DNA of 64,000 nt from positions 2,728,001 through 2,792,000 of the forward strand of contig NZ_AP019307.1 of assembly GCF_003945325.1 (NCBI RefSeq), in the 5' to 3' direction. Made by a program: the position numbers and the translations under genes. Shown here one piece after another: positions 7,063-45,586 of the stretch. The first letter of the stretch is position 1. Each line of letters begins with the position of its first letter. The DNA is from Nocardioides baekrokdamisoli (GTDB lineage Bacteria > Actinomycetota > Actinomycetes > Propionibacteriales > Nocardioidaceae). The notes beneath the pieces were generated by a model, which was not told the DNA's origin, did not search any database, and saw only the letters and a list, made by a program, of their open reading frames with translations.

Positions 7063-9168
7063 GTGTCGATCGGTGTCACCCCTGATCATCAGGACCTGGC
7101 TGCTTCGGTCGTCGACTGGGCGCAGAGTCTGGCCGGGCTCGACGCCGTCCGCGGTGCTGAGGCGGACGTCGAAGCGACCTTTGGCGACGTGTGGAAGCAC
7201 GTGGCCGCCCACGGCCTTGCCTTGATCGCTGCGCCGGAGGGTGCGGGCGGCGGCGGAGGGTCTCTTCTGGACGCTGCGGTGGCTGTGTCCTCGGCAGCGG
7301 AGGAACTGCTCCCGGGCCCGGTCCTCTCGACCTCGGTGACCGGTGTGGTCGCCGGTGACATCGCTCCAGTGATGGCGACGCTTGCAACCGGTGGACGTGC
7401 GGCCGTCGGCCTGGTGGCGTCGCTCGAGATGGCCGAGCGGCTGACCGGGACGGTGTCGGTGGTACTCGATGCTCCTGGAGCCGACTGGTTCCTCCTTGGC
7501 GCTGGCGAGCGGTGGTTCGCGGTGCCGGCAGCAGGTGTCACCGTGCAAGCGTCGGTCGGCCTGGATCTGACCCGGCGGACCGGATCGGTCACTGTTGACG
7601 CTCCGCTGGCAGACGTCCACGAACTGTCAGCCTCTGGTGCGGACGTGCGGCGGGTGCTGGTCTCCTTTGCCGCGGCCGAGGCGGCTGGCGTCGCCCGACG
7701 CTGTCTGAAGATCGCAGTTGAGTACGCCGGGATCCGTGAGCAGTTCGGGCAGCCGATCGGGAAGTTCCAGGCGATCAAGCAGCTCTGTGCGCAGATGCTG
7801 GAGACGAGCGAGGCTGTCAATGCTGCCGCCTGGGACGTCGCTGCGGCCGCGACGAGCGGTCCGGAACAGTCGGCGTACGCCGCCGATGTCGCCGGGACAA
7901 TCGCGTTCGACGGGGCTGTCCGGGTTGCCCAGGACTGCATCCAGGTGCTCGGCGGCATCGGGTTCACCTTTGAGCACGAGGCTCACTTCTATCTGCGGCG
8001 CGCGACTGCACTGCGAGCGATCGTCGGCTCGGGCGACAGCTTCGCGCGATCGTTGGCCCAGCGTGCCGTCGGTGGGGTCCGCCGGGCCGTCGACATTGAC
8101 CTCGACGGTCAGGACGAGGCCGTACGCGCCGAGATCCGTGCGGTGGTCGGCACCGCTGCCATGGCGCCGGACTTCTGTCGTCGCCACGCGTTGGTCGACT
8201 CGGGTCTGATCGCGCCGCACTGGCCCGCTCCGTACGGGCGCAATGCCGGCCCGGTCGAGCAGATCGTCATCGACCAGGAACTGGCCGCCGCAGGGGTGAC
8301 CCTGCCCGACATCAAGATCGGTGGCTGGGCAGTGCCGACGATCCTGGCGCACGGCACTGACGCGCAGCGCGCGAAGTTCGTACGCCCGACCCTCTCCGGA
8401 GACATCGTCTGGTGCCAGCTGTTCAGCGAACCGGGAGCCGGGTCGGACCTGGCCTCGTTGCGTACGAAGGCGGTCCGGGTCGAGGGCGGCTGGTCGCTGA
8501 CCGGCCAGAAGGTCTGGACGTCGCTGGCGCAGCAGGCCGACTGGGCGATCTGCCTCGCACGGACGAACCCGGACGCACCGCAGCATGCCGGGATCACCTA
8601 CTTCCTGGTCGACATGCGATCCGCAGGACTCGATGTCCGTCCACTCCGGGAGTTGACCGGAGACGCGTTGTTCAACGAGGTGTTCCTCAACGACGTCTTC
8701 GTACCCGATGAGCTCGTCGTGGGGGAGGTCGACGGCGGATGGCGGTTGGCCCGCACAACGCTGGCCAACGAACGCGTCGCGATGGCGAGCACCAAGCTCG
8801 GGCTGAGCGTCGAGCGAGCGATCGAGCTGGTCGCATCCGGCTCTGACGCTGACCTGGCCCGGGTCGGGCGGATGGTCGCGCTGTCGACGGTCGGTTCGCT
8901 TCTGGATGTACGCACCACGCTGCGCTCACTCGCCGGACAAGGACCGGGTGCGGAGTCGAGCGTTGCGAAACTCCTCACGGTCCACGTCCGACAGACGGCC
9001 TCCGAACTGGTCGTCGACCTGCTCGGGCCGGCCGCACTGACCGACGATCCTCAGGTGGTCGCCGACGTCCACGAGATGCTGCTGACGCGGTGTCTGTCGA
9101 TCGCCGGCGGCACCACGCAGATCCTGCGGAACGTGGCCGCCGAGCGGATTCTCGGGCTCCCGCGCTGA
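7063..9168 (+). CDS. fadE34: Two-module acyl-CoA dehydrogenase, FadE34/ChsE3-like
   Basis: A 701-residue protein made of two acyl-CoA dehydrogenase modules. The N-terminal half carries FGQPIGKFQAIKQ and a GGIGFTFEHEAHFY segment near residue 300. The C-terminal half carries the flavin/substrate motif SEPGAGSDLASLRT and ends with GGTTQILRNVAAERILGLPR. Length and order match mycobacterial FadE34 (711 residues), which forms the alpha,beta double bond in a steroid-CoA with a shortened side chain. I use GTG at 7063 because GGAGG lies 5 bases before it and the KstR operator lies just upstream. Divergence from kstR is conserved with M. tuberculosis. Confidence 0.92.
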   Translation: MSIGVTPDHQDLAASVVDWAQSLAGLDAVRGAEADVEATFGDVWKHVAAHGLALIAAPEGAGGGGGSLLDAAVAVSSAAEELLPGPVLSTSVTGVVAGDIAPVMATLATGGRAAVGLVASLEMAERLTGTVSVVLDAPGADWFLLGAGERWFAVPAAGVTVQASVGLDLTRRTGSVTVDAPLADVHELSASGADVRRVLVSFAAAEAAGVARRCLKIAVEYAGIREQFGQPIGKFQAIKQLCAQMLETSEAVNAAAWDVAAAATSGPEQSAYAADVAGTIAFDGAVRVAQDCIQVLGGIGFTFEHEAHFYLRRATALRAIVGSGDSFARSLAQRAVGGVRRAVDIDLDGQDEAVRAEIRAVVGTAAMAPDFCRRHALVDSGLIAPHWPAPYGRNAGPVEQIVIDQELAAAGVTLPDIKIGGWAVPTILAHGTDAQRAKFVRPTLSGDIVWCQLFSEPGAGSDLASLRTKAVRVEGGWSLTGQKVWTSLAQQADWAICLARTNPDAPQHAGITYFLVDMRSAGLDVRPLRELTGDALFNEVFLNDVFVPDELVVGEVDGGWRLARTTLANERVAMASTKLGLSVERAIELVASGSDADLARVGRMVALSTVGSLLDVRTTLRSLAGQGPGAESSVAKLLTVHVRQTASELVVDLLGPAALTDDPQVVADVHEMLLTRCLSIAGGTTQILRNVAAERILGLPR

Positions 9169-11885: not shown

Positions 11886-12797
11886 TCAGCCTCGCGCTGC
11901 CGGCTGCCGATCGCGTACGCGTGCCGCCGTCGTGTTGACCGCCTGCAGGAACTGCGGGATGAAGGCCTCCGCCTGAAGGACGCATCCTGCGTGACCACAC
12001 GGTGCTTCGTGGACGGTCGAGTTCGGGATGAGAGCAGCGACCTTGCGCTGGCCGGACGCGGGAAGCACGTGGTCCTCGCTGGTCACGACGACTGCCGTCG
12101 GGACGTCGACGTACGGGAGCCAGCGCGTGGAGTGGAAGCGCCCGAGCGAGGCGACTGCCTGTCCGACCGCCCACGGGCTCGTACTCTTGAATTCTGCGAG
12201 CGCCCACTGGCCGACGTCGGTCTGCTCGATCTGCAGTGCTCCGGCCGCCGCGCTGGCCGCGCTGCGCAGCATCTTCGAGCGGGCCACGCTGTGCAGGATG
12301 CCCATCGCCAGTTCGGTGTACGCGTGGAAGAGCACCGTCGGGAGGTTGTTGCGGAAGTGATCGGTCGTCGCGCACAGCACCAGCCCGCCGACGGCGTCCG
12401 GGTGCTGACGCCAGAGCCGCTGGGCGACGATCGACCCCATCGAGAAGCCGGCCACGATCGGGTCGACGAGTTCGAGAGCGTCGATGACGGCGGCAGCGTC
12501 GTCAGCACAGTCGGAGATGAGGAAGCGCTCCGACGTGATCCCACGACCGTGCCAACGCTGGTCGAAGATGACGACGCGATAGCGCTTGTTGAGTTCCTCG
12601 ATCACCGGGAACCAGGTGAGGAGTCCGGTGCACCCGACGGCGTGCAGCAGTACTACCGTTCGGGCGTCAGGCGTGGGGCCGGGGAGGTCGGTGAGCCAGA
12701 CCCGACCACGGCGTGGGAGATCGAGCCAACGGCCCTCCGGCGGATCGAACTCCGGCAACTTCAACAGTTGGGCCAGTGCTGTCACAGGCGACCTCAC
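11886..12797 (-). CDS. Alpha/beta-hydrolase fold protein of unknown substrate
   Basis: A 303-residue alpha/beta hydrolase. Visible features are the oxyanion region HAVGCTG, DQRWHGRG, nucleophile elbow GFSMGS (about residue 117) and a C-terminal His in PCGHAGC. The start is GTG with AAGGAGG eight bases upstream. It is divergent from the side-chain operon across a KstR operator, so it is probably part of the regulon. It ends one base beyond the convergent acyltransferase stop. Steroid-ester or CoA-thioester hydrolysis are possibilities, but nothing in the sequence selects one. Confidence 0.8.
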   Translation of the reverse strand: MRSPVTALAQLLKLPEFDPPEGRWLDLPRRGRVWLTDLPGPTPDARTVVLLHAVGCTGLLTWFPVIEELNKRYRVVIFDQRWHGRGITSERFLISDCADDAAAVIDALELVDPIVAGFSMGSIVAQRLWRQHPDAVGGLVLCATTDHFRNNLPTVLFHAYTELAMGILHSVARSKMLRSAASAAAGALQIEQTDVGQWALAEFKSTSPWAVGQAVASLGRFHSTRWLPYVDVPTAVVVTSEDHVLPASGQRKVAALIPNSTVHEAPCGHAGCVLQAEAFIPQFLQAVNTTAARVRDRQPAARG

Positions 12798-12854
12798 GTG
12801 ACGTGCCTCCTTGGTTGCAGGGTCGTGGTCATGGCTCGCTCCCGTGCCCTAGAC

Positions 12855-12868
12855 TAGAACACGTTCCA
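12855..12868. promoter_or_regulatory. KstR operator between hydrolase and side-chain operon
   Basis: TAGAACACGTTCCA fits the KstR consensus fully. It lies 57 bases upstream of the leftward hydrolase and 76 bases upstream of the fused dehydrogenase. A 14-bp tandem duplication (TCCGGCACATAGGT, 12898-12925) lies between the operator and the dehydrogenase start. Confidence 0.85.
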
Positions 12869-12944
12869 GTTTTGTTTGTGACGTGGTGTTCGTGACGTCC
12901 GGCACATAGGTTCCGGCACATAGTTCTGATGCAGTGAGGTGGCC

Positions 12945-15062
12945 ATGTTCGATCGCAGTGAGACGGCCGATGCCGTACGCGGGGTGGTCAAGGATGTCCT
13001 CGCCCGCGAGGTCGAGTGGTCGGCCTTCGCCGACGCCGGGTTGCTCGAGTTCGGCGAGGACCTCGGGGTCACCGAGGTCGCAGCCGCGTTGTACGAACTC
13101 GGAGCAGCGGCTGCGGTCGATGTTCCGTACCTGGAGACAGCGAGCTGTGCCCTGCTGCTGAGCGAGATCGGCGGTCAGCACGAGTTGCTCGCTTCCGTCG
13201 CCGCGGGGACGGCGCGGTTGGCGCCGGGCCTACGCACTCGCGCCGGGTCGAGCACGCCGGCGTACGAGTCCGGCAAGGTCCGCGGGCAGATCCTCGGAGT
13301 GGCCGGGGCCGACTGGTTGCTGGTGCCCGCCACGTCCGCGGACGGCGAGGTTCTGCTGCTCGTGGAGGACGCGGCGGTGACGAGGGTCGAGAGCGCGACC
13401 TCGCGCGGGGCTCTCGAGGCCACGGTCGTCCTGGACGGTGCCGCCGACGTCATCGGTGACGCCGAGGCAGTGCGCCGACTGCGGGAGCTGGTGGCTGCCG
13501 GGCAGGTCAGCATCGCTGCCGGGCTCGTCGACGGGGCACGGGATCTGACCGCGAGCTACATCTCGGAGAGGGTCCAGTTCGGCCGCAAGCTCGCTGAGTT
13601 CCAGGCCGTCTCGCAGCAGATCGCTGATGTCTTCATCGCCTCCCGGACCCTGGGGCTCGCCGCCGAGAACCTGGTGTGGCGCCTCACCGATCGCTTGCCT
13701 GCTGCCGATGACCTCGCAGTCGCCGCGTACTGGGCGGCCTCGCAGGCACGTGCCGCGATCCAGACCTGTCACCACCTGCACGGCGGCATGGGTCTTGACA
13801 TCACCTACCCGCTGCCGCGCTACTCCGCGTGGGCCTCTGACGTGGCGGCCGCGCTCGGCGGAGCCGAGGGTGCGCTGGAGGGCGTACGCGTTGCCGACGC
13901 CGCTGTCGCCAATCTTGAACTGACCGTTGAGCAGCGAGACCTCAAGGCCGAGTTGCGTACGTACTTCGCTCAAGTGGTCTCCCCGGAGCAGCACCGGGAC
14001 ATGATGGTGAACCGTCACGGACCGAGCTACCGGACCGTCGTGCGCCAGCTCGGCGAGGATGGCTGGATGGGGGTCGGCTGGCCCACGAAGTTCGGCGGCA
14101 AGGGCCTCGGTGACATCGAGCAGACGATCTTCGCCAACGAGGCGATCCGGGCAGAGGTGCCGCTGCCGTCGGTGACCCTGCAGACCGTCGGCCCGACGCT
14201 GCAGACCTTCGGTACCGAGGAGCAGAAGGCACGCTTCCTGCCGTCGATCCTCGCGGGCGAGGTGCATTTCGCGATCGGCTACTCCGAGCCGGACGCCGGG
14301 ACCGATCTCGCCTCGCTGCGTACGTCGGCACGGCGCGACGGCGACCACTACGTCGTCAACGGTCAGAAGATGTTCACCACCGGCGGCCACGCCGCCGACT
14401 ACATCTGGCTGGCGGTGCGTACAGACCCCGACGCGCCCAAGCACAAGGGGATCTCGATCCTGATCGTCGACACGACGGACCCCGGGTTCTCGTGGACGCC
14501 GATCATCACTGCGGACGGTGCTCATCACGTCAACGCGACGTACTACAACGACGTACGCGTGCCGGTCGAGAACCTGGTCGGCGTCGAGAACGAGGGCTGG
14601 CGACTGATCACCGCGCAGCTCAACCACGAGCGGGTCATGCTCGGCCCGGCGGGCCGGCTCGAGGGTCTGCGTGACCGCGTGGTCGCGTGGGCCGAGGCGG
14701 CCGGCGTCGCAGACGAGACGGACGTACGCCGGGCGGTCGGCGAGGTGACCGCGGCCTTCCGGGTCAACGAACTCCTCAACTGGGAGGTCGCCCGGCAGGC
14801 GGCGAACGGCGGCCTGTCGGTCGCCGATGCCTCGGCATCGAAGGTGTTCGCCAGCGAGCAGGTACAGGTCCTGGGGCCGCAGTTGCTCGATGTCGTACGC
14901 CGCTACGGAGACCCGGCCGACGAGGCCACGGGCGAGTTGATCGAACTGCTCGACGCCCTCGGGAAGCGCAACCTCGTGCTGACCTTCGGTGGAGGGGTGA
15001 ACGAGGTGCAGCGTGAGCTGATCGCCCAGTTCGGCCTGAAGCTGCCGCGGGTGCCGCGATGA
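12945..15062 (+). CDS. Fused acyl-CoA dehydrogenase, FadE28-FadE29 (ChsE2-ChsE1) type
   Basis: A 705-residue protein with two acyl-CoA dehydrogenase modules. The N-terminal half (about 1-330) has VQFGRKLAEFQAVSQQIAD and CHHLHGGMGLDITYPL, as in FadE28. The C-terminal half (about 335-705) has YSEPDAGTDLASLRT and the FadE29-like ending GGGVNEVQRELIAQFGLKLP. In mycobacteria these are two genes forming an alpha2beta2 enzyme that desaturates the last three-carbon side chain (3-oxo-4-pregnene-20-carboxyl-CoA). The following hydratase and aldolase genes catalyse the next two steps. Start ATG 12945 has GAGG upstream; GTG 12939 is an alternative. It overlaps the next gene by ATGA. Confidence 0.87.
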   Translation: MFDRSETADAVRGVVKDVLAREVEWSAFADAGLLEFGEDLGVTEVAAALYELGAAAAVDVPYLETASCALLLSEIGGQHELLASVAAGTARLAPGLRTRAGSSTPAYESGKVRGQILGVAGADWLLVPATSADGEVLLLVEDAAVTRVESATSRGALEATVVLDGAADVIGDAEAVRRLRELVAAGQVSIAAGLVDGARDLTASYISERVQFGRKLAEFQAVSQQIADVFIASRTLGLAAENLVWRLTDRLPAADDLAVAAYWAASQARAAIQTCHHLHGGMGLDITYPLPRYSAWASDVAAALGGAEGALEGVRVADAAVANLELTVEQRDLKAELRTYFAQVVSPEQHRDMMVNRHGPSYRTVVRQLGEDGWMGVGWPTKFGGKGLGDIEQTIFANEAIRAEVPLPSVTLQTVGPTLQTFGTEEQKARFLPSILAGEVHFAIGYSEPDAGTDLASLRTSARRDGDHYVVNGQKMFTTGGHAADYIWLAVRTDPDAPKHKGISILIVDTTDPGFSWTPIITADGAHHVNATYYNDVRVPVENLVGVENEGWRLITAQLNHERVMLGPAGRLEGLRDRVVAWAEAAGVADETDVRRAVGEVTAAFRVNELLNWEVARQAANGGLSVADASASKVFASEQVQVLGPQLLDVVRRYGDPADEATGELIELLDALGKRNLVLTFGGGVNEVQRELIAQFGLKLPRVPR

Positions 15063-16450
15063 CCAGCACCGCTCAGGACACCACGCCGCACGACGACGTG
15101 ATGGATCTGGTCGCACCGATGCTGGAGCGCGGGCCGACCGAGCCGCGCCTGGCGCTGGACGAGGTCAACCTGCCGATGATCCGCCACTGGCTCGAGGCGA
15201 TCGGTGAAACTGATCCCCGCTTCTCGGGACCGGACGCGGTCGCGCCGCCCGCGATGGCGCAGGTCTGGACGATGTACGGGCTCGATCCGCACCGCCCATC
15301 GCACGACCCGCTGCACGGGACGATGCAGATCCTGGACAAGGCCGGGTTCACCTCGGTGCTCGGGACGAACTGTGACCAGACGTACGCGCGATTCCTGCTG
15401 CCCGGTGAGCGCACGGCGATCACGTCGCGGCTGACCTCCGTCGTCGGTCCCAAGCAGACCGGGGTCGGGACCGGCTACTTCGTGACCACCGAGAACACCT
15501 GGTGGGTGGGCGACGAGGCCGTCGCGACGATGACGTTCCGGGTGCTCAAGTTCAAGCCGGGTACGGCCGCCGCTGCCGCGCCGAAGATCGATCGGACCTT
15601 GGCCGTACGCCCGGTCCGCAACCGCGACAACGAATTCTTCTTCGAGGGCGCCGCGCTCGGCGAGGTGCGGATCCAGAAGTGCAACGCCTGCGGCGTGCTG
15701 CGGCACCCTCCGGGTCCGATGTGCCCGTCGTGCCACGCCGCCGATCGCGGCTACGTGGTCGCTTCCGGTCTCGGAACGGTGTTCTCCGAGATCACCCACC
15801 ATGCGCCGGCGATCCCCGGCCGGGCCCTGCCGTTGCGGATCGTCCTGGTCGATCTCGACGAGGGCGTACGCATGGTGGGTGTCCACCTCGGGGACGAAGC
15901 ACCCGAGATCGGTACGCGCGTGCGCGCGGTCTTCGACCGCATCGACGACGACCTCACCCTCGTCGCATGGGAGCCCGCCGCCTCCGCCGAAACCCGACAG
16001 ATGTCAGCCGAAACCCGACAACTGTCAGGTCGAGATGCGGAGATTGTCACCGATCTGGTCGTCCACGACCTGCCGGCGTGGGAGGTGCCGATCACCCCGA
16101 CGCTGGTCGTGTCGACCGCGCTCGCCACCCGCGACTTCCAGGACGTGCACCATGACCGCGACCTCGCGGTGAAGCGAGGATCGAAGGACATCTTCCTCAA
16201 CATCCTGAGTACGACGGGGCTGGTGCAGCGGTTCGTCGGCGAATGGGCGCGTGAGCGTTTCGGGGCGGACGTACGCATCACTGCCTGCGCCCTGCGGCTC
16301 GGCGCGCCGGCGTACCCGGGCGACACGCTCACCTTCACAGGCGACGTGGTCACTGACGACGGTCGCGAGGTTGTCGTCGACGTGGTCGGGGCGGTGTCGC
16401 TCGGCAACCACGTGAATGCGCGCGTGACACTGGTCAGGGGAGAGGCATGA
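15059..16450 (+). CDS. Fused steroid enoyl-CoA hydratase ChsH2-ChsH1
   Basis: A 463-residue protein joining two normally separate subunits. Residues ~1-170 are a MaoC/hotdog domain. Residues ~200-308 are the DUF35 part: zinc ribbon CNAC/CPSC (about 205-222), then an OB-fold, as in ChsH2 (Rv3542c). Residues ~325-463 are a second hotdog domain with RDFQDVHHDRDLA, as in ChsH1 (Rv3541c). ChsH1-ChsH2 hydrates 3-oxo-4,17-pregnadiene-20-carboxyl-CoA, and the DUF35 part docks the Ltp2 aldolase encoded next. The junction (residues ~310-323) is two 7-residue copies, AETRQMS and AETRQLS, encoded by a 21-bp tandem repeat found elsewhere in the window. It overlaps both neighbours by ATGA. Confidence 0.88.
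   Translation: MTSTAQDTTPHDDVMDLVAPMLERGPTEPRLALDEVNLPMIRHWLEAIGETDPRFSGPDAVAPPAMAQVWTMYGLDPHRPSHDPLHGTMQILDKAGFTSVLGTNCDQTYARFLLPGERTAITSRLTSVVGPKQTGVGTGYFVTTENTWWVGDEAVATMTFRVLKFKPGTAAAAAPKIDRTLAVRPVRNRDNEFFFEGAALGEVRIQKCNACGVLRHPPGPMCPSCHAADRGYVVASGLGTVFSEITHHAPAIPGRALPLRIVLVDLDEGVRMVGVHLGDEAPEIGTRVRAVFDRIDDDLTLVAWEPAASAETRQMSAETRQLSGRDAEIVTDLVVHDLPAWEVPITPTLVVSTALATRDFQDVHHDRDLAVKRGSKDIFLNILSTTGLVQRFVGEWARERFGADVRITACALRLGAPAYPGDTLTFTGDVVTDDGREVVVDVVGAVSLGNHVNARVTLVRGEA
15986..16037 (+). repeat. Dispersed GCCGAAACCCGACA repeat, two 21-bp units, inside a coding fusion
   Basis: Two tandem 21-bp units begin at 15986 and 16007, each starting GCCGAAACCCGACA and ending TGTCA, then GGTCGAGATG. 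They lie in frame at the ChsH2/ChsH1 junction. The same unit occurs at 35197-35262, 44696-44827 and 45543-45586. Confidence 0.85.
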
Positions 16451-17625
16451 GCATCGGGTTCAGCGGAGTGGCGGCCATCGCAGGCATCGGGGCCACCGAG
16501 TTCTCCAAGGAGTCCGGCCGCTCCGAGCTGCAGTTGTCTGCCGAGGCGACCCTGGCGGCGCTGGCGGACGCGGGCCTTGCGCCGAGCGACGTCGACGGTC
16601 TGGTCACCTTCACGATGGACAACTCCTCGGAGATCGCGCTCGCCCGCGAGCTCGGCATGGGCGACCTGCGCTTCTTCAGCCGGATCAACTACGGCGGCGG
16701 AGCGGCGTGCGGCACGGTGCAGCAGGCCGCGATGGCGGTGGCGACCGGCGTGGCCGACGTCGTCGTGGCGTACCGAGGCTTCAACGAGCGGTCGGGTCAG
16801 CGCTTCGGGCAGGTGCAGAGCTGGGCGGCGACCCAGGTCAACACCAACGGTCTCGACAACGCCTGGACGTACCCGCACGGTCTCTCGACCCCGGCCGCGA
16901 CGGTCGCGATGCAGGCGCGTCGTTACATGCACGAGTACGGCGCGACTTCGGAAGACTTCGGGCGCGTGGCGGTTGCCGACCGGCGTCACGCCGCGACGAA
17001 TCCGGCCGCGTTCTTCCACGGGAAGCCGATCACGCTGGAGGACCACCAGGCCTCACGACTGATCGCCGACCCGCTGCGACTCCTTGACTGCTGCCAGGAA
17101 TCCGATGGTGCGGTCGCGATCGTGGTGACGACGACCGAGCGCGCCCGCGACCTCGCCCAGGGGGGCGTACCGATCCTCGCCGCCGCTCAGGGGAGCGCGG
17201 CCGATCAGTTCGTGATGACCTCCTACTACCGCGATGACATCGGGGTGCCCGAGATCGGCGTCGTGGGGCGGGAACTGTGGCGACAGTCCGGCCTAGGGCC
17301 GGCGGACATGCAGACGGCGGTGTTGTACGACCACTTCACGCCGTATGTGCTGATGCAGCTCGAGGAGCTCGGCTTCTGCGGTCGCGGTGAGGCTCCTGGC
17401 TTCATTGCCGACGGCGCGATCGAACTGGGTGGGCGGCTGCCGATCAACACCCATGGCGGGCAGCTCGGGGAGGCGTACATCCACGGCATGAACGGCATTG
17501 CCGAGGGCGTACGCCAGTGCCGTGGGACCTCGGTGAATCAGGTCGATGCGGTCGAGCATGTACTCGTCACTGCCGGCACGGGTGTGCCAACCAGTGGGCT
17601 GATCCTCGGCACCCGCGAACCGTGA
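16447..17625 (+). CDS. ltp2: Steroid side-chain aldolase Ltp2 (thiolase fold)
   Basis: A 392-residue thiolase-fold protein of the SCP2/lipid-transfer subfamily, like Rv3540c (Ltp2, 386 residues). It keeps the fold landmarks (GIGATEFSKESGRSE at the N-terminus, YGGGAACGTVQQA, and NTHGGQLGEAYIHGMNG near 335) but should act as a retro-aldolase rather than a thiolase. It releases propionyl-CoA and androstenedione from 17-hydroxy-3-oxo-4-pregnene-20-carboxyl-CoA. It needs the DUF35 domain of ChsH2 as partner, encoded immediately upstream with an ATGA overlap. It is the last gene of the operon, closed by a hairpin terminator. Confidence 0.9.
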   Translation: MSIGFSGVAAIAGIGATEFSKESGRSELQLSAEATLAALADAGLAPSDVDGLVTFTMDNSSEIALARELGMGDLRFFSRINYGGGAACGTVQQAAMAVATGVADVVVAYRGFNERSGQRFGQVQSWAATQVNTNGLDNAWTYPHGLSTPAATVAMQARRYMHEYGATSEDFGRVAVADRRHAATNPAAFFHGKPITLEDHQASRLIADPLRLLDCCQESDGAVAIVVTTTERARDLAQGGVPILAAAQGSAADQFVMTSYYRDDIGVPEIGVVGRELWRQSGLGPADMQTAVLYDHFTPYVLMQLEELGFCGRGEAPGFIADGAIELGGRLPINTHGGQLGEAYIHGMNGIAEGVRQCRGTSVNQVDAVEHVLVTAGTGVPTSGLILGTREP

Positions 17626-17631
17626 GGTTTT

Positions 17632-17670
17632 CAGGCCCGAATCGTGATGATCGTTCACGGTTCGGGCCTG
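17632..17670. terminator. Bidirectional hairpin terminator after ltp2
   Basis: CAGGCCCGAATCGTGA pairs with TCACGGTTCGGGCCTG (one wobble) around TGATCGT, between two convergent genes. Confidence 0.78.
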
Positions 17671-17689
17671 CAACTTTCACGGTTTGGCG

Positions 17690-18532
17690 TCAGGCTCGGA
17701 CGCGCGCGGCGAGCTTGTCGAGGTAGCGCAGGACGTCGTCGGGCTCGGCGTCGGGCACACCCCAGATGAGCTCGTGGGCCTCGGCGCGCTCCCAGTCCGC
17801 GTACTCCTCCTCGGTGGGTCGCTTGTAGACGAGGATCCTGACCTCTGGCTCGCCGTCACGTCCCGCGTCGACCCATTCACGTCGCAGCAGCGCGGCGCGG
17901 TCGGCGATCTCGACCTCGCGCGGCGTTGTCATCCAGCCGTCGGCGTGCTGGGCGATCCAGCGCATCGTCTGCGGACCGCCGCCGGCTCCGACCACGACGG
18001 GGATCCGGCCGCGCGCCGGCTTGGGGTACGCCCAACTCGGCCCGAACGACACGAACTCGCCGTCGTACGACGCCTCCTCCTCCGACCACAGCGCCCGCAT
18101 CGCCTCGAGGTATTCGCGCAGGACGGTCCGACGACGATCAGCCGGCACGTGGTGGTCGGCGAGTTCGTCGGTGTTCCAGCCGAACCCGACACCGATGCTC
18201 AGGCGCCCGTCGGACAGGTGGTCGAGTGTCGCCAGCGACTTTGCCAGCGTGATCGGGTCCGACTCCACCGGCAGGGCCACGGCAGTCGAGAGCCCGATCC
18301 GCGATGTCACCGCCGCACAGGTCGCCAACGACACCCACGGGTCCAGCGTGCGCAGGTATCGATCGTCGGGCAGTTCCTTGGACCCGGAGGGGTGCAGAGC
18401 GTCGCGGCGAACCGGGATGTGGGTGTGCTCCGGCACGTAGATCGTGTCGAATCCTCGCTCCTCAGCGGCGATCGCGAGAGCGGCGGGACGGATCCCTCGG
18501 TCAGAGGTGAAAAGCACGATTCCGTGGCGCAT
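17690..18532 (-). CDS. LLM-class F420-dependent oxidoreductase
   Basis: A 280-residue luciferase-like monooxygenase-superfamily protein. Visible features are an ERGFDTIYVPEHTHIPV N-terminal segment, SRIGLSTAV, LDHLSDGRLSIGVGFGWN, and the Gly-rich PVVVGAGGGP near residue 185, as in Rv2161c-type F420 enzymes. The cofactor is therefore probably reduced F420 rather than flavin. It is divergent from an SDR gene across a KstR operator, so it may be steroid-induced. Related genes lie in mycobacterial cholesterol clusters, but the reaction is unknown. No partner reductase is nearby. Confidence 0.8.
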   Translation of the reverse strand: MRHGIVLFTSDRGIRPAALAIAAEERGFDTIYVPEHTHIPVRRDALHPSGSKELPDDRYLRTLDPWVSLATCAAVTSRIGLSTAVALPVESDPITLAKSLATLDHLSDGRLSIGVGFGWNTDELADHHVPADRRRTVLREYLEAMRALWSEEEASYDGEFVSFGPSWAYPKPARGRIPVVVGAGGGPQTMRWIAQHADGWMTTPREVEIADRAALLRREWVDAGRDGEPEVRILVYKRPTEEEYADWERAEAHELIWGVPDAEPDDVLRYLDKLAARVRA

Positions 18533-18565
18533 GGACCCACCTTAGAAGTCATGGCGCCAGAAAAC

Positions 18566-18579
18566 TAGAACGTGTTACA
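18566..18579. promoter_or_regulatory. KstR operator between the LLM and SDR genes
   Basis: TAGAACGTGTTACA fits the KstR consensus. A -10-like TACATT at 18576-18581 overlaps its right end and is seven bases before the SDR ATG, which predicts a leaderless, KstR-blocked promoter. Confidence 0.83.
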
Positions 18580-18587
18580 TTTTTGGA

Positions 18588-19388
18588 ATGATCCTGAATC
18601 TCTTTAAGTTGGATGGTCGGGCAGCGGTCGTGACCGGCGCAGGACGCGGCATCGGTGCGGCCTCCGCCATCGGTCTGGCCCAGGCCGGCGCCGACGTGGT
18701 CATCTCGGCCCGACACGGCTCCCAGCTGCAGGTCGTGGCCGATCAGATCGAGGCGCTCGGTCGCCGTGCGATCATCGTCAAGGCGGATCTCTCCGACCTC
18801 GATGCGGCAGCCTCGCTCGCCGATATCGCGCGTACGGAGTTCGGGCGACTCGACGTGGTCGTCAACAACGTCGGCGGCACGATCCCGAACACGTTGCTGG
18901 ACACCGACGCCGCCTATCTCGAGGAGGCGTTCCACTTCAACGTCTCGACCGCACACGCACTCACCCGCGCTGCCGTACCGCACATGCTTGAGGCAGGCGG
19001 CGGCTCGGTCATCAACATCACCTCCGCCGTCGGCCGACTCGCCGGCCGCGGCTACCTGGCGTACGGCACCGCCAAGGGCGCGCTGGCGCACTACACCCGC
19101 CTCGCTGCACGTGATCTCAGCCCCTCGATCCGCGTCAACGCGATCGCGGTCGGCTCGGTGCAGACGAGCGCGCTCGACTTTGTGACCCAGGACGAGAACA
19201 CGAAGGCGGCGATGGAGGCAGGTACGCCGCTCGGCCGGATCGGCACCACCGACGACATCGCAGCTGCCGTGCTTTACCTGGCCAGCCCGGCCGGGTCGTT
19301 CCTGACCGGGAAGGTGCTCGAGGTCGACGGCGGACTCCAGGAGCCGAACCTGGATCTCAACCTGCCCGACCTCAAGGCTGCCCTGTGA
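18588..19388 (+). CDS. Short-chain dehydrogenase of the KstR regulon, unknown substrate
   Basis: A 266-residue classical [11 protein letters not shown] dinucleotide motif at about residue 16, NNVGG in place of the usual NNAG, catalytic Ser in ITSAVG and YGTAKG as Tyr/Lys. The C-terminal DGG motif is typical of SDRs with acyl or steroid substrates. Its start sits directly behind a KstR operator and -10 box, and it overlaps the next gene by four bases, so the two form an operon. It is likely to oxidise or reduce a steroid hydroxyl or keto group. The position on the substrate is unknown. Confidence 0.8.
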
Positions 19389-34167: not shown

Positions 34168-35198
34168 AGGCTGATCAGCGCGCGGTGCTCGTGGGGCTGG
34201 CCGAACAGTTGCCCCAGTGCGTGGGCTCGCTTGAACACCAGATGAGCGTCGTGCTCCCAGGTGATGCCAATGCCGCCATGAAGCTGAATCGTCTCGGCGC
34301 CGATGTGGCTCAGGGCGTCCGAGCAGTACGCCGCTGCGGAATGGATCATCGTCGGATCCGTCGTCGCGGCGTCGACTGCCGATCGAGCCATCTCGACGCG
34401 TACGAGCATGTCGGCCATCCGGTGCTTGAGCGCCTGGAACGATCCGATGGGGCGACCGAACTGGACGCGCTCCTTGGCGTACGCGACGGTCATGTCGAGT
34501 CCGCGCCGAGCCGCTCCTACCTGCAGAGCGGCGACGGTCAGACAGCCGGCGTCGTGGGCACGTGAGAGTGCTTCTGACGCGTCGTCGACGACGAGCGTTG
34601 CGGGGGCGTCGTCGAATGTGAGGTTGGCCAGACGGAGCGTGGGATCCATCGCCGGGGTCTGCGTACGAGCGACGTCTGCCGGGTCGACAGACACGAGGGC
34701 GACGCCATCTCCGGTGCGCGCAGCGGCGATGAGGACCGTGGCGATGTCGCCGTCGAGGACGTACTCGATCGTGCCGGAGACCCGACCGTCGACGTAGGTC
34801 AGTGGCTCGTCGACGTCGGTCGACGCCGAGGTCGTGGTGGCCGATGCCAGAGTGGCCACTTCGCCGCCGGCGATCCGTTCGAGCAACGACTCGGTGCCGG
34901 GCGTCGTGATCAGGGCAGCCGAGGCGATCAGCGACGACACCAGCGGGAGTGGCGCGAGGGCGTACCCGATCTCCTCGGCGACGACGAGCGCCTCGGCGAG
35001 TGAGAAGCCAGCACCGCCCGCCTCCTCCGGGATCGGGAGTGCCGCGACGCCGACCTGCTCGCAGAGCAACTGCCAGAGTGACGCGTCATGGCCGACCGGT
35101 GACTCCATCGCCACCCGGACGGCGGCGCTGTCGGAGCGCTTCGCGAGCAGGCTGCGTACGGTCGCGGCCAGCTCCTCCTGCTCGGGAGTGCGTGTCAT
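34164..35198 (-). CDS. fadE33: Acyl-CoA dehydrogenase subunit, FadE33-like
   Basis: A 344-residue acyl-CoA dehydrogenase family protein. The N-terminal helical domain runs to about residue 105, the beta domain (VDGRVSGTIEYVLDG and onward) to about 215, and the C-terminal helices carry YAKERVQFGRPIGSFQALKHRMADM and QLHGGIGITWEHDAHLVFKRA. In mycobacteria FadE31, FadE32 and FadE33 are encoded together and act on propionyl-type intermediates of the C/D rings. The start ATG overlaps the FadE32-like stop (ATGA) and lies inside a repeat unit. It ends the fadD3 operon and converges with the membrane-protein gene. Confidence 0.87.
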   Translation of the reverse strand: MTRTPEQEELAATVRSLLAKRSDSAAVRVAMESPVGHDASLWQLLCEQVGVAALPIPEEAGGAGFSLAEALVVAEEIGYALAPLPLVSSLIASAALITTPGTESLLERIAGGEVATLASATTTSASTDVDEPLTYVDGRVSGTIEYVLDGDIATVLIAAARTGDGVALVSVDPADVARTQTPAMDPTLRLANLTFDDAPATLVVDDASEALSRAHDAGCLTVAALQVGAARRGLDMTVAYAKERVQFGRPIGSFQALKHRMADMLVRVEMARSAVDAATTDPTMIHSAAAYCSDALSHIGAETIQLHGGIGITWEHDAHLVFKRAHALGQLFGQPHEHRALISL

Positions 35199-35920
35199 GA
35201 CGGAATCCGGGTTTCGGCGTGCCGGGTGTCGGGTTTCGGCGTGGCGGATGTCGGGTTTCGGCGGGCCAGGAGAGAGGCGAGGATCCGCTCGCGGTGCCAC
35301 TGTGGAGAGCCGCCGAGGTGCTTCAGATCGAGGACGCGTTGCATCCAGATCGAGATGTCGCACTCGAGCGTGTAGCCGATGGCGCCGTGGACCTGCAGGG
35401 CGGCGCGGGACGCCCGGTACGCGGCGTCGTACGCCCCGACCTTGGCCGCTGAGACGGCTTGTTCACCGGGCGCGCAAGCCGCGCCGAACACCAGCGGCCG
35501 AGCGAAGTCCAGGGCGATCCGCACGTCGGCCAGTTGGTGCTTGATCGCCTGGTAGGAGCCGATCTCACGACCGAACTGGCGGCGCTGCTTCACGTAGGTG
35601 ACGGAGTCGGCCAGCAGTCGCTCTCCGGCGCCGAGCAGGTACGCGGCGTTCGCGAGTACGCCGAGGTCGGTCGCGTCGAAATGCGCAGACGGCACCGGTA
35701 CGGCGTGCCGCCCCAGCACTTCGAAGACCGCGGCGACCTCGACCGGACCGAGGTCCGGATCGCCGACGCCTTGCTGTTCCAACCGAGCCCACAAGGTGTC
35801 AGCGGCTGTGCTGTCGCCGCCTGCCGCCGCACGGTTGACGGCGGGCGTGTCACTGGTCACGAGCAGGCGGTCGAGCGAGTCGGCGAATGCCTGCTGCTCC
35901 TCGGTCAGGATGAACTCCAT
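35195..35920 (-). CDS. Compact acyl-CoA dehydrogenase subunit, FadE32-like, apparently lacking the beta domain
   Basis: A 241-residue protein between fadE31 and fadE33, where fadE32 (about 319 residues) is expected. The N-terminal helical part is present (MEFILTEEQQAFADSLDRL to about residue 90), and so is the C-terminal helical domain (VTYVKQRRQFGREIGSYQAIKH, then QVHGAIGYTLECDISIWMQR). The ~90-residue central beta domain is missing without a frameshift. The C-terminus (RRNPTSATPKPDTRHAETRI) is encoded by a three-unit dispersed repeat. It overlaps both neighbours. It may be a structural, non-flavin partner of FadE31, or a decaying subunit. Confidence 0.8.
   Translation of the reverse strand: MEFILTEEQQAFADSLDRLLVTSDTPAVNRAAAGGDSTAADTLWARLEQQGVGDPDLGPVEVAAVFEVLGRHAVPVPSAHFDATDLGVLANAAYLLGAGERLLADSVTYVKQRRQFGREIGSYQAIKHQLADVRIALDFARPLVFGAACAPGEQAVSAAKVGAYDAAYRASRAALQVHGAIGYTLECDISIWMQRVLDLKHLGGSPQWHRERILASLLARRNPTSATPKPDTRHAETRIPS
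35197..35262 (-). repeat. Dispersed GCCGAAACCCGACA repeat, three 22-bp units
   Basis: On the minus strand three tandem 22-bp units occupy 35241-35262, 35219-35240 and 35197-35218. Each begins GCCGAAACCCG. The last contributes all but the final base of the overlapping stop of the FadE32-like gene and ATG of fadE33. The family also occurs at 15986, 44696 and 45543. Confidence 0.88.
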
Positions 35921-42378: not shown

Positions 42379-43527
42379 ATGCCTGAAGCCTTCATCATCG
42401 ACGCCGTGCGTACGCCGGTCGGACGCCGCGGCGGCTCGCTCGCCGGCATGCACTCCGCCGACCTCGGAGCGCACTCCCTGTCCGCACTGATGACCCGTAC
42501 CGGGGTCGACCCGAGCGCCGTCGACGACGTGATCATGGGCTGCTGCGACACCATCGGCTCGCAGGCCGGCGATGTCGCGCGTACGGCCTGGCTCACCGCC
42601 GGGCTGCCGGACGAGGTGCCCGGTGTGACGATCGATCGCCAGTGTGGCTCGTCCCAGCAGGCTGTGCACTTCGCGGCCCAGGGCGTCATGTCTGGCACCC
42701 AGGACCTCGTGGTGGCCGGCGGACTGCAGAACATGTCTGCGATCCCGATCTCGGCCGCGATGCTGGTGGCTGACCAGTACGGCTTCACCACGCCGTTCGC
42801 TGAGTCCCCGGGTTGGCGCGCACGGTACGGCGACGTCGAGGTGTCGCAGTTCAACTCCGCCGAGATGATCGCCGAGAAGTGGGACATCAGCCGCGAGGAC
42901 ATGGAGGCGTTCGCGTACGCCTCGCACCAGCGGGCACGTACCGCGATCGCGGAGGGTCGCTTCGCGAACGAGATCGCGCCGGTCGGAGACTTCGCGGTCG
43001 ACGAGTGCCCCCGCGAGACCTCTCTGGAGAAGATGGCGGCCCTCAACCCGCTGGCTCCCGGTGGCCGGATCACGGCCGCAGTTGCCTCCCAGATCTCGGA
43101 CGCGTCCTCGGCGATGCTGATCGCCTCCGAGGCAGCCGTCGCCACCCACGGCCTCACGCCGCGGGCGCGGATCCACCACCTCTCGGTCCGCGGGGATGAC
43201 CCGATCTGGATGCTGACCGGACCGATCCGGGCCACCGAGTACGCGTTGAAGAAGGCCGGGATGTCGATCGACGACATCGACCTCTTCGAGTGCAACGAGG
43301 CGTTCGCCTCGGTCGTGCTGGCGTGGATGAAGGAGACCGGGGCGCCGCACGAGAAGGTCAACGTCAACGGGGGCGGCATCGCGCTCGGGCACCCGATCGG
43401 GGCCACGGGAACCCGCCTGATGACGACGCTTCTCAACGAGCTCGAGCGCACCGGTGGCCGCTACGGCCTGCAGACGATGTGCGAGGGCGGCGGTCAGGCC
43501 AACGTCACGATCATCGAGCGGCTGTGA
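42379..43527 (+). CDS. fadA6: Steroid C/D-ring thiolase FadA6
   Basis: A 382-residue thiolase. Catalytic Cys in TIDRQCGSSQQAVHF (about residue 88), NEAFASVVLAW, His in GGGIALGHPIGATGTR (about 342) and the second Cys in LQTMCEGGGQANVT (about 371). FadA6 (Rv3556c, 386 residues) cleaves acetyl-CoA from the C/D-ring intermediates. The start ATG has GAGG upstream and is preceded by a 203-base region with three phased palindromes, so it may have its own regulated promoter. It overlaps the next gene by GTGA. Confidence 0.93.
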   Translation: MPEAFIIDAVRTPVGRRGGSLAGMHSADLGAHSLSALMTRTGVDPSAVDDVIMGCCDTIGSQAGDVARTAWLTAGLPDEVPGVTIDRQCGSSQQAVHFAAQGVMSGTQDLVVAGGLQNMSAIPISAAMLVADQYGFTTPFAESPGWRARYGDVEVSQFNSAEMIAEKWDISREDMEAFAYASHQRARTAIAEGRFANEIAPVGDFAVDECPRETSLEKMAALNPLAPGGRITAAVASQISDASSAMLIASEAAVATHGLTPRARIHHLSVRGDDPIWMLTGPIRATEYALKKAGMSIDDIDLFECNEAFASVVLAWMKETGAPHEKVNVNGGGIALGHPIGATGTRLMTTLLNELERTGGRYGLQTMCEGGGQANVTIIERL

Positions 43528-44831
43528 CGGCCCCGTCGGCGTTCGCGCCTGCCCAACTGGGGCCGGTGACGCTGCGCAACCGGATCATCAAGTCGGCGAC
43601 CTTCGAGGGGCGTACGCCCGACGGCCTGGTGACCGACGAACTCATCGACTACCACCTCGCGCCGAGCCGCGGGGGAGTCGGACTCACGACGGTCGCCTAC
43701 CTCGCGATCGCGCCCGAAGGGCGTACGCACGGCGAACAGATCGTCGTCGGATCGTGGTCCGCGCCGGGGCTGGCGCGACTCACGGATGCGATCCATGAGA
43801 CCGGCGCGAAGATCTCCGGCCAACTCGGCCACGCCGGCCCGGTCGCAAACGGCCGCTCCAACCGCCACCGGGCGATCTCGGCCTCGTCGATGCCGTCGCC
43901 GCTGAGCATGCAGATGATCCGCGGCGCCACGGAGAGTGACATCACCCGGATCACCTACGACTATGTACGCGCCGCACGCATCCTCGTCGACGCCGGCTTT
44001 GACGTGCTCGAGGTCCATCTCGCGCACAGCTATTTGTTGAGCGCGTTCCTGGCGCCCGGACTGAACCGGCGGCGCGATCGTTGGGGCGGATCGCTCGAGA
44101 ACCGGGCCCGCTTCGCGCGTCAGGTCGTACGCGCCGTGCGGGATGAGGTCGGCGACGAGGTCGCGGTCATCGCCAAACTCGGGATGAGCGACGGTTCCCC
44201 GGCAGGGGTGTCGGTGCCCGAGAGCATCGAGGTCGCACAGTGGTTGCAGCAGGACGGTGGCCTCGACGCGATCGAACTGAGCGCCGGCAGCTCGCTCCTG
44301 AACCCGATGTATCTCTTCCGTGGCGACGTGCCACTGAAGGAGTTCGCCGCGCAGATGCCCGGGCCTGTGCGCCTCGGTCTCAAGACCCCGATGGGCCGGA
44401 CCTTCTTCCGTGCGTACGAGTTCCGCGAGGCGTTCCTGCGCGAGAACGCGCTCAAGTTCCGCGCCGCGGTCTCGATGCCGCTGGTCCAGCTCGGCGGAAT
44501 CAATGACCGGGCCACGATCGATCAGTCGATGGCCGACGGGTTCGAATTCGTCGCCATGGCCCGGGCGCTGCTGCGCGAACCCGACCTGGTCTCCCGGCTC
44601 GCCGCTGACGAGACGGGGCACGGGCTGTGCATCCACTGCAACCAGTGCATGCCCACCATCTACACCGGCACTCGCTGCACGCAGCTCCCGCTCCTGCCGA
44701 AACCCGACATCCGTCAGCCCGAGACGACCGGAGTGAGGCCGAGCGCCGCGCGTGCGCGAGCGCTTGCGCCGAACGAGGGAGTGCCGCGCGAAGCGCGGCC
44801 GACCCGACGTCCGTCAGGTCGAGATGGATAG
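43524..44831 (+). CDS. Old-Yellow/FadH-type FMN oxidoreductase with repeat-derived tail
   Basis: A 435-residue TIM-barrel flavoprotein of the NADH:flavin oxidoreductase family. FMN-side landmarks are RNRIIKSATFEG at the N-terminus, GQLGHAGPVAN, AHSYLLSAFLAPGLNRR and WGGSLENRARF. The metal-type Cys cluster CIHCNQCMP near the end recalls 2,4-dienoyl-CoA reductase, but the second reductase domain of FadH is absent. It is coupled to fadA6 by GTGA, so it may reduce an unsaturated C/D-ring CoA ester. The last ~45 residues (from PKPDIRQPETTG) are encoded by the dispersed repeat and its hairpin box and probably replace the original end. Confidence 0.82.
   Translation: MTAPSAFAPAQLGPVTLRNRIIKSATFEGRTPDGLVTDELIDYHLAPSRGGVGLTTVAYLAIAPEGRTHGEQIVVGSWSAPGLARLTDAIHETGAKISGQLGHAGPVANGRSNRHRAISASSMPSPLSMQMIRGATESDITRITYDYVRAARILVDAGFDVLEVHLAHSYLLSAFLAPGLNRRRDRWGGSLENRARFARQVVRAVRDEVGDEVAVIAKLGMSDGSPAGVSVPESIEVAQWLQQDGGLDAIELSAGSSLLNPMYLFRGDVPLKEFAAQMPGPVRLGLKTPMGRTFFRAYEFREAFLRENALKFRAAVSMPLVQLGGINDRATIDQSMADGFEFVAMARALLREPDLVSRLAADETGHGLCIHCNQCMPTIYTGTRCTQLPLLPKPDIRQPETTGVRPSAARARALAPNEGVPREARPTRRPSGRDG
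44696..44827 (+). repeat. Dispersed repeat: two units flanking a hairpin box
   Basis: One unit begins at 44696 (GCCGAAACCCGACATCC) and a shorter one at 44798 (GCCGACCCGACGTCC), followed by GGTCGAGATG as at 16028. Between them is the box GCTTGCGCCGAACGAGGG (44762 on) and the hairpin CCGCGC-GAA-GCGCGG (44784-44798), related to the element after hsaF. Confidence 0.82.
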
Positions 44832-44840
44832 TTTGGCCTG

Positions 44841-45536
44841 ATGCGCGAGCCGAACCCGATCAGGTCAGCTGCCACAGTCATCGTCGTACGCGACGGAGCA
44901 GCTGGGCTCGAGACGTTGTTGTTGCGCCGCCACTCCGACATCGCCTTCCACGGCGGCTCCTGGGTCTTCCCCGGCGGCCGGATCGACGCGGCCGACTACG
45001 GCTCCACGGAGCTTCCGTCGGACCCGATGTCGGATGGCCACGAACCCGCAGCTCGAGTGGCCGGGGTACGCGAGGCCAACGAGGAAGCCGGGCTCGTACT
45101 CGATCCGGGCGAACTAGTGCCGTTCTCGCACTGGACCACCCCCGCACTGCGGGTCAAGCGGTACGCGACGTGGTTCTTCGTGGTCGCCGCGCCTGTCGGT
45201 GAGGTCACGGTGGACGGGTCCGAGATCACCGATCATCGGTGGATGTCTCCGCTCGCGGCGCTCGACGCGCGCGACAGTGGCGAGATCGAGTTGCCGCCGC
45301 CGACATACGTGACCCTTCGCCGGCTGGCCAGCTCCTCGACCGTCGCCGAGGTGCTCAAAGAAGCCGCCGACGCTCCCTATCTGCGTTTCGAACCGCACAT
45401 CCACCTCGTCGAGGGCGGCTTCGTCTCGATCTACGAGGGCGACGCTGCGTACGAGGACGACTCGCGCCTCGATGCCGAGGCACCGAGGCATCGCCTGTAC
45501 GCGGTCAACCCGATCTGGCGCTACGAGCGCACCTGA
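44841..45536 (+). CDS. Nudix hydrolase, NUDT7/NUDT19-like
   Basis: A 231-residue Nudix protein. The box is FPGGRIDAADY with an inserted loop, then AARVAGVREANEEAGL, which gives the conserved RExxEExGL core (about residues 74-86). The insertion between the Gly and Glu parts, and the length, are as in the NUDT19/NUDT7 group, which hydrolyses CoA and acyl-CoA esters. A role in CoA turnover during steroid catabolism would fit the position after fadA6 and the FMN enzyme but is not shown. It starts nine bases after the repeat-extended upstream gene and ends beside another repeat. Confidence 0.8.
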   Translation: MREPNPIRSAATVIVVRDGAAGLETLLLRRHSDIAFHGGSWVFPGGRIDAADYGSTELPSDPMSDGHEPAARVAGVREANEEAGLVLDPGELVPFSHWTTPALRVKRYATWFFVVAAPVGEVTVDGSEITDHRWMSPLAALDARDSGEIELPPPTYVTLRRLASSSTVAEVLKEAADAPYLRFEPHIHLVEGGFVSIYEGDAAYEDDSRLDAEAPRHRLYAVNPIWRYERT

Positions 45537-45542
45537 CTCACC

Positions 45543-45586
45543 GCCGAGACCCGGCATCCGTCACGCCGAGACCTGGCGTCTGTCAG
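45543..45586 (+). repeat. Dispersed repeat, two 22-bp units between Nudix and cupin genes
   Basis: Units begin at 45543 (GCCGAGACCCGGCATCC) and 45565 (GCCGAGACCTGGCGTCT). They are the most diverged copies. The stop codon of the leftward cupin gene (45583-45585) lies inside the second unit. Confidence 0.78.

Follow-up and report, generated by a model that had tools for sequence, protein, structure and literature searches.

In a 64,000-nucleotide stretch of the Nocardioides baekrokdamisoli genome (contig NZ_AP019307.1, positions 2,728,001 to 2,792,000; hereafter the window, whose own numbering is used throughout), the gene at 15059-16450 encodes what appears to be a single-chain form of a steroid side-chain hydratase, with the two hotdog halves, ChsH2 and ChsH1, and the DUF35 domain together in one polypeptide. 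The linker between the DUF35 and ChsH1 parts is partly encoded by a dispersed repeat, and comparison with related sequences suggests that the fusion predates the repeat seen in the window, the 22-bp unit having later occupied an existing flexible and poorly conserved linker. The linker would thus be a tolerated landing site, one of two repeat-bearing fusion linkers seen in this genome. We consider these three propositions, taken jointly, to be likely. The original prediction had instead proposed that expansion of the repeat over the ChsH2 stop fused the two genes, and this mechanism was not supported: fused relatives at 82-84% identity lack the units, and five fused genomes of the genus hold 0-1 copies of the repeat.

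The fusion of ChsH2 and ChsH1 in one polypeptide was itself borne out. The gene is a single uninterrupted frame on the forward strand, with an ATG start and 463 residues, joined to both neighbours by ATGA overlaps (15059-15062 and 16447-16450). Its predicted order of hotdog, zinc ribbon/OB (DUF35) and hotdog domains was recovered by Pfam and by matches to 4wnb_A, 6ok1_B and 4wnb_B (Table 1); Pfam assigned FAS1_DH_region to residues 35-158, zf-ChsH2 to 195-228 and OB_ChsH2_C to 232-293, with MaoC at 342-438 barely passing (27.2 bits against a cut-off of 27). Across a 52-row alignment the zinc-ribbon cysteines C208, C211, C222 and C225 were nearly invariant, and D359 and H364 of the ChsH1 part showed no variation; the latter pair, placed by eye on 4wnb_B, we take to be the Asp/His dyad of ChsH1. 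An AlphaFold2 model (52 rows) had a mean predicted local distance difference test (pLDDT) score of 86.9 and a predicted template modelling score of 0.69, with pLDDT of at least 90 at 300 of the 463 residues and below 50 at residues 314-332. A lost stop or frameshift between the halves, through an assembly or sequencing artefact, is hardly credible, given that the assembly is a single contig of 98.69% completeness and that the same fusion occurs in many other genomes and proteins.

The predicted protein resembles the ChsH1-ChsH2 hydratase of solved structure (4wnb, 4w78; DUF35 part 6ok1), presumably from Mycobacterium tuberculosis and Thermomonospora curvata, in its three domains, the ChsH1 Asp/His positions, the four zinc-ribbon cysteines and the Ltp2-type gene that comes next. 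However, the known enzyme consists of two chains forming a heterotetramer, whereas here one chain carries a linker that is predicted to be disordered and is partly repeat-encoded. The function of the fusion, assigned by homology, would be that of the hydratase, most likely working like the two-chain form, and a single chain would mean that the subunits are made 1:1 next to ChsE and Ltp2. To judge from 4wnb and 6ok1, the linker would leave the ChsH1 half free to pair with the hotdog of ChsH2, with DUF35 holding the Ltp2 aldolase.

Two copies of AETRQ(M/L)S, attributed in the original prediction to 21-bp repeats at 15986-16027, were confirmed as codon-aligned units reading AETRQMS and AETRQLS. 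Our analysis adds a diverged third unit at 16029-16049 and a period of 22 bp for the family elsewhere; this third unit differs at 5 of 21 positions from the third unit of an array at 471622 (GTCGAGACCCGACGTTTGTCA), a count made by eye in a comparison chosen afterwards. The 21-bp pattern (at most 3 mismatches) has 6 matches in the window against 0.07 expected, and the earlier report of the family at three other gene ends was right in substance (35198-35262, 44696-44716 and 45543). At the same threshold, the 21-mer occurs 100 times in the whole genome (57 + 43; 1 for the control); the 208 other genus genomes have 0-1 copies each, with one copy in 14 of them. The repeat family is therefore real and, at high copy, private to this genome within the 209 genus genomes counted. 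Same-strand steps of up to 70 bp between copies comprised 42 of 22 bp, 2 of 44 bp and 1 of 21 bp, the sole 21-bp step being that of the ChsH linker.

The position of the repeat relative to genes was evaluated for 55 same-strand arrays, using genes that we called ourselves with a codon model across the window and 38 further stretches of the genome, and extending array starts backwards across more degenerate units before the stop distance was measured; the gene caller is simple, and individual array placements may be wrong. Thirty-six of the 55 arrays begin 0-6 nt after the stop of a called gene on the same strand, a position reached by 2.9% of 20,000 random intergenic placements. Among the remaining 19, five lie in sense within called genes and two follow a stop by 9 and 11 nt; the last 12 are farther off, within a gene but antisense to it, or without such a gene nearby. 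Unit-like sequence stands directly behind the stop in just 1 of 66 called window genes, and the repeat is therefore not a general 3' feature. Arrays read in sense inside genes were found in two linkers (ChsH and CobB-CobC) and in the C-terminal parts of three genes (Table 1).

This positional rule is also what lends some plausibility to a repeat-driven fusion, in which an array behind the chsH2 stop would have expanded or shifted the frame until the stop was bypassed and chsH2 was read into chsH1. Besides the in-sense arrays directly behind stops and those in the translated tails of three genes, a 22-bp unit would shift the frame and could thereby bypass a stop, and in Gordonia repeat-like DNA occurs in four of five fused linkers, against 25 split junctions read. 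Several observations nevertheless make this explanation improbable. All five of the nearest full-length homologues (82-84% identity) are fused and lack AETRQ units; five genomes of the genus with the full fusion (G005, G054, G112, G135 and G224) have other linkers and 0, 0, 0, 1 and 0 copies of the repeat; and fused genes with linkers unlike that of the window also occur at nine further loci, Aeromicrobium-type and others of the family. The same fusion with an unrelated linker, which had been named beforehand as evidence against repeat-driven fusion, was thus found, and fused relatives further out have unrelated linkers. Moreover, the family was abundant in a single genome out of the 209 of the genus, both repeat-bearing fusions of this genome are widespread elsewhere, and of the fused Gordonia, G389 lacks any evident repeat and the rest bear different repeats.

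Fusion of ChsH2 to ChsH1 is common in these bacteria and a known kind of event. We classified 121 loci (the window and L031-L150, several from the same genomes): 30 were all fused, 60 had a fused ChsH2 and a separate ChsH1, 29 had three separate genes and 2 were in the other mixed state. All 29 three-gene loci belong to genomes placed in the window's genus, and a three-gene set has been published for N. simplex (PMC7807495). A search of the genus matched 14 of 215 genomes at 1e-60, the window's included, and a search of the family matched 24 of 341 at 1e-120; among 16 further family loci read, 10 were fused and 6 split. A quick tree was built from 138 rows, namely 99 of the 120 loci, 38 of the 119 further proteins listed, and the window; on it the fully fused state takes 12 changes, 8 of them forced by starred branches. 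On a 68-row tree built with a careful method, ChsH1 fused versus split takes 11 changes, 9 of them forced. A single clade for all fused rows was rejected (p-AU, approximately unbiased test, 4e-48), for a group named after the first tree was seen. The window and 13 fused proteins form one clade of 14 rows (97*).

The CobB-CobC fusion, the second gene of this genome with the repeat in a linker, presents a comparable case. Its linker holds two in-sense units with a 22-bp step between them, and an antisense repeat pair is read in a loop of the CobC half. The linker stretch is 81 residues long here, 54 in the two nearest homologues and 39-68 in 24 relatives. Domains of both halves are present in all of the 119 other listed homologues except P0130, which is partial; the idea that CobB-CobC is a private, repeat-made fusion was rejected, as the fusion is widespread among homologues. 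In both repeat-bearing fusions the repeat sits in a linker that relatives also have, and an ancestor of the repeat may already have been present there in near kin. Among near relatives, the ChsH linkers of P0002 and P0003 and the CobB-CobC linkers of P0122 and P0130 contain similar peptides (EESVAHDL, DQESVAHDL; EESVVADL, DQDSVAPNL). Such similar linker peptides hint at a related repeat in both proteins.

A number of points weigh against a late arrival of the repeat in an older fusion. The linker array sits in sense just where the ChsH2 stop would fall, as repeat-driven fusion predicts, and the translated C-terminal arrays of three genes are a possible intermediate of that process. The 14-row all-fused clade is no proof of absent split relatives, because its proteins, like all 38 in the tree, were picked from full-length hits and are thus fused by selection. 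A wider clade of 53 rows includes 15 loci, of which 8 show the full fusion, 6 a separate ChsH1 and 1 the mixed state. Repeated fusion and repeated splitting are indistinguishable here because the tree is unrooted and the deep, long-branched L121, L122 and L130 are also fused. Likewise, the length filter of the CobB-CobC homologue search disfavours split CobB and CobC. P0122 has a long CobC loop of 72 residues, similar to the 77-residue repeat-bearing loop of this genome (the loop has 59-68 in 22 others), and its CobB-CobC linker, like that of P0130, is similar to the part encoded by the repeat. The ChsH linkers of P0004 and P0006 show a 7-residue period, and because of this period and the P0122 loop near relatives may hold diverged units; P0002-P0007 are known as proteins alone, with diverged units possible in their linkers. 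The arrival of the repeat may therefore be older than this species. Our confidence stays at the level given above because the fused clade is partly a product of protein choice and because near relatives may hold a diverged repeat.

A more elaborate history would have a fused ancestor split in the window's lineage, the repeat arriving behind the chsH2 stop and the genes then fusing again. That such changes happen is indicated by L144, L077, L071, L085, L145 and L082, which have a separate ChsH1 yet lie among fused rows. This course costs two extra steps, however, and no split row stands close to the window, where the rows had been chosen as full-length proteins; we regard it as very unlikely. 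Under the favoured history of an older fusion and a later repeat, the repeat would reach sites just behind stops and then grow in 22-bp steps, staying in coding sequence only where it is in frame and tolerated by the protein, and frame-keeping would have fixed one linker step at 21 bp. The lone 21-bp step fits such selection, but no second case is seen, and the two units of the CobB-CobC linker are still 22 bp apart. We infer both the order of events and the selection on frame from the architecture, copy number, position and fused relatives described above.

Linkers of other proteins and lineages were compared for repeat content, with peptide patterns picked after the linkers had been read, such that the counts are descriptive and carry no test. 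Of 120 proteins, 2 lacked the anchor motif, leaving 118 linkers, in which a search for family-like peptides matched the window's own and P0032, where ETRQ belongs to an unrelated 10-residue repeat. REP-like (repetitive extragenic palindromic) peptides were present in 17 of the 118 and a tandem duplication in 17. In Gordonia, the gene occurs in 59 of 59 genomes, and the 30 genomes read at the DNA level comprised 5 fused and 25 split. The linker of G252 contains a REP-like repeat twice (131 pattern matches genome-wide) and also a 21-bp unit, which matched 8 times against 0 in the control; that of G423 holds two copies of the same REP-like repeat (110 matches), whose pattern had 0 matches in G390, G389, G437 and G383. 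G253 carries a 21-bp tandem (4 matches, one of them the linker), and G390 a tandem of similar make. In N. jensenii (L065/L143, G135) the linker holds three tandem GTGGTTGAGGA units, and one further copy (L155) matches it over about 40 bp, by eye. The GTGGTTGAGGANGCC pattern had 20 matches in that genome, 3 of them the linker's own, versus 5 in the control; as evidence for a dispersed repeat this count is weak alone, and of the seven further genomes searched, most showed no excess (G005, 17 versus 10). In L201, a Gordonia locus with split genes, an in-frame tandem duplication lies within the C-terminal part of the ChsH2 DUF35 domain.

As a tentative generalization, about which we remain more doubtful than convinced, linkers of fused actinobacterial enzymes might be systematically rebuilt from whichever dispersed repeat is active in the lineage, by a graded route from behind the stop, through a translated C-terminal tail, to the linker. 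The present genome would exemplify this with a private 22-bp family and frame selection leaving a 21-bp step, and Gordonia and N. jensenii with unrelated repeats. The stop-anchored family and the repeat-filled fusion linkers of several lineages merit following up. The genome offers a countable case of repeat DNA turning into protein, with dozens of sites behind stops, three C-terminal parts and two linkers, and in other genera the ChsH2-ChsH1 linker is likewise filled, by repeats unrelated to this one. The origin of linkers and C-terminal tails thereby becomes testable by genome comparison.

Several known systems share features with these elements. ChsH3, CasD and CasQ also carry a hotdog pair (two MaoC domains) in one polypeptide (PMC11321319), but lack a DUF35 domain. 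Rickettsia palindromic elements are likewise dispersed repeats read in frame inside genes (PMC10969869), as this repeat is read within two linkers, three C-terminal parts and one antisense loop; they are, however, palindromic and about 150 bp long, whereas the tandem unit here is 22 bp and single-orientation arrays fold like shuffles. Mycobacterial interspersed repetitive units are dispersed tandem repeats at gene borders (PMC2734929, PMC12548453), with units of 40-100 bp against 22 bp here; they are described as inserting at start codons, and the present arrays lie mostly behind stops. REP and GTAG-REP elements also lie mostly downstream of genes, GTAG REP ends often supplying the stop codon and some lying in open reading frames (PMC3733652); unlike TnpA-REP systems, the single-orientation arrays here have no palindromic fold, and Y1 transposase (PF01797) had no match in this genome (the control matched in 5 of 14), which led us to discard a REP-type transposase as the mover. 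In passages of PMC12502768, PMC2734929, PMC12548453, PMC11321319, PMC7807495, PMC10969869 and PMC3733652, drawn from a literature with few subscription journals, we found no description of a ChsH2-ChsH1 fusion or of a 22-bp stop-anchored repeat.

Five single-orientation arrays folded no better than shuffles (z -0.1 to -1.8), and a role of the arrays as RNA hairpins or terminators was rejected on this ground, although two stretches with inverted repeat pairs (z -14.8 and -5.9) and the linker do fold better. For the linker RNA (15980-16050) this is a single test, with z -3.5, unlike the five arrays behind stops. Several convergent gene pairs in the genome bear one array each, producing long inverted repeats. 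A second shared element (GCCGAGACGACCGGAGTGAGG...) follows repeat units near G000:C1 2490179, 2772696, 2831224, 2926543 and 534334, and occurs also in the tail of 43524-44831.

Table 1. Features of the fusion gene, its neighbours and the repeat-bearing genes (window positions unless a contig or locus is given)
Feature	Coordinates	Strand	Evidence or remark
Double acyl-CoA dehydrogenase, 707 aa, ChsE-type subunits in one chain	12939..15062	+	Residues 333-705 match 6wy8_B Tcur3483; 119-315 match 6wy8_A Tcur3481
ChsH2-ChsH1 fusion gene	15059..16450	+	Open frame, Pfam domains, matches to solved structures
Peptide stretch of the 463-aa fusion protein			AETRQMSAETRQLS
N-terminal hotdog (ChsH2 MaoC-like), residues 12-175	15092..15583	+	4wnb_A, E=2.2e-48
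DUF35 (zinc ribbon + OB domain), residues 183-311	15605..15991	+	6ok1_B ChsH2(DUF35), E=5.9e-25
Repeat unit 1, AETRQMS, begins at residue 310, the end of the DUF35 match	15986..16006	+	Codon-aligned
Linker, residues 314-332, probably disordered	15998..16054	+	AlphaFold2 model, pLDDT < 50
Repeat unit 2, AETRQLS, 21 bp after unit 1	16007..16027	+	Codon-aligned
Diverged third unit GTCGAGATGCGGAGATTGTCA, 22 bp after unit 2	16029..16049	+	Likeness to array at 471622
C-terminal hotdog (ChsH1-like), residues 338-458	16070..16432	+	4wnb_B, E=7.3e-33
Ltp2-type thiolase-fold protein, next gene, ATGA overlap	16447..17625	+	NF005892 lipid-transfer protein, 693 bits
Acyl-CoA dehydrogenase domain protein, repeat in C-terminal tail	35195-35920	-	
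Three repeat units, in-frame C-terminal tail of 35195-35920	35198..35262	-	Read in frame
Flavin mononucleotide (FMN) oxidoreductase, repeat in C-terminal part	43524-44831	+	
Repeat unit 115 nt ahead of the stop of 43524-44831, in its C-terminal part	44696..44716	+	In-sense unit
Repeat unit 6 nt behind stop codon of 44841-45536	45543..45563	+	Position after stop
Phosphodiesterase-like gene, repeat in C-terminal part	L214:2624-3445		
CobB-CobC fusion, 846 aa, repeat in linker	G000:C1:533176-535716 = L218:1977-4517	-	

The igr-type neighbourhood of the ChsH fusion is present, comprising the ChsE pair and Ltp2, with the ChsE pair itself in one chain. No terminator-like site was found within 12000-18600 of the window. 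Two genes of the window, 7063-9168 and 12939-15062, are each a one-chain double acyl-CoA dehydrogenase, and adjacent acyl-CoA dehydrogenase pairs like the latter form one frame in 15 of 79 long loci (the window included), both Gordonia with fused ChsH being among them.

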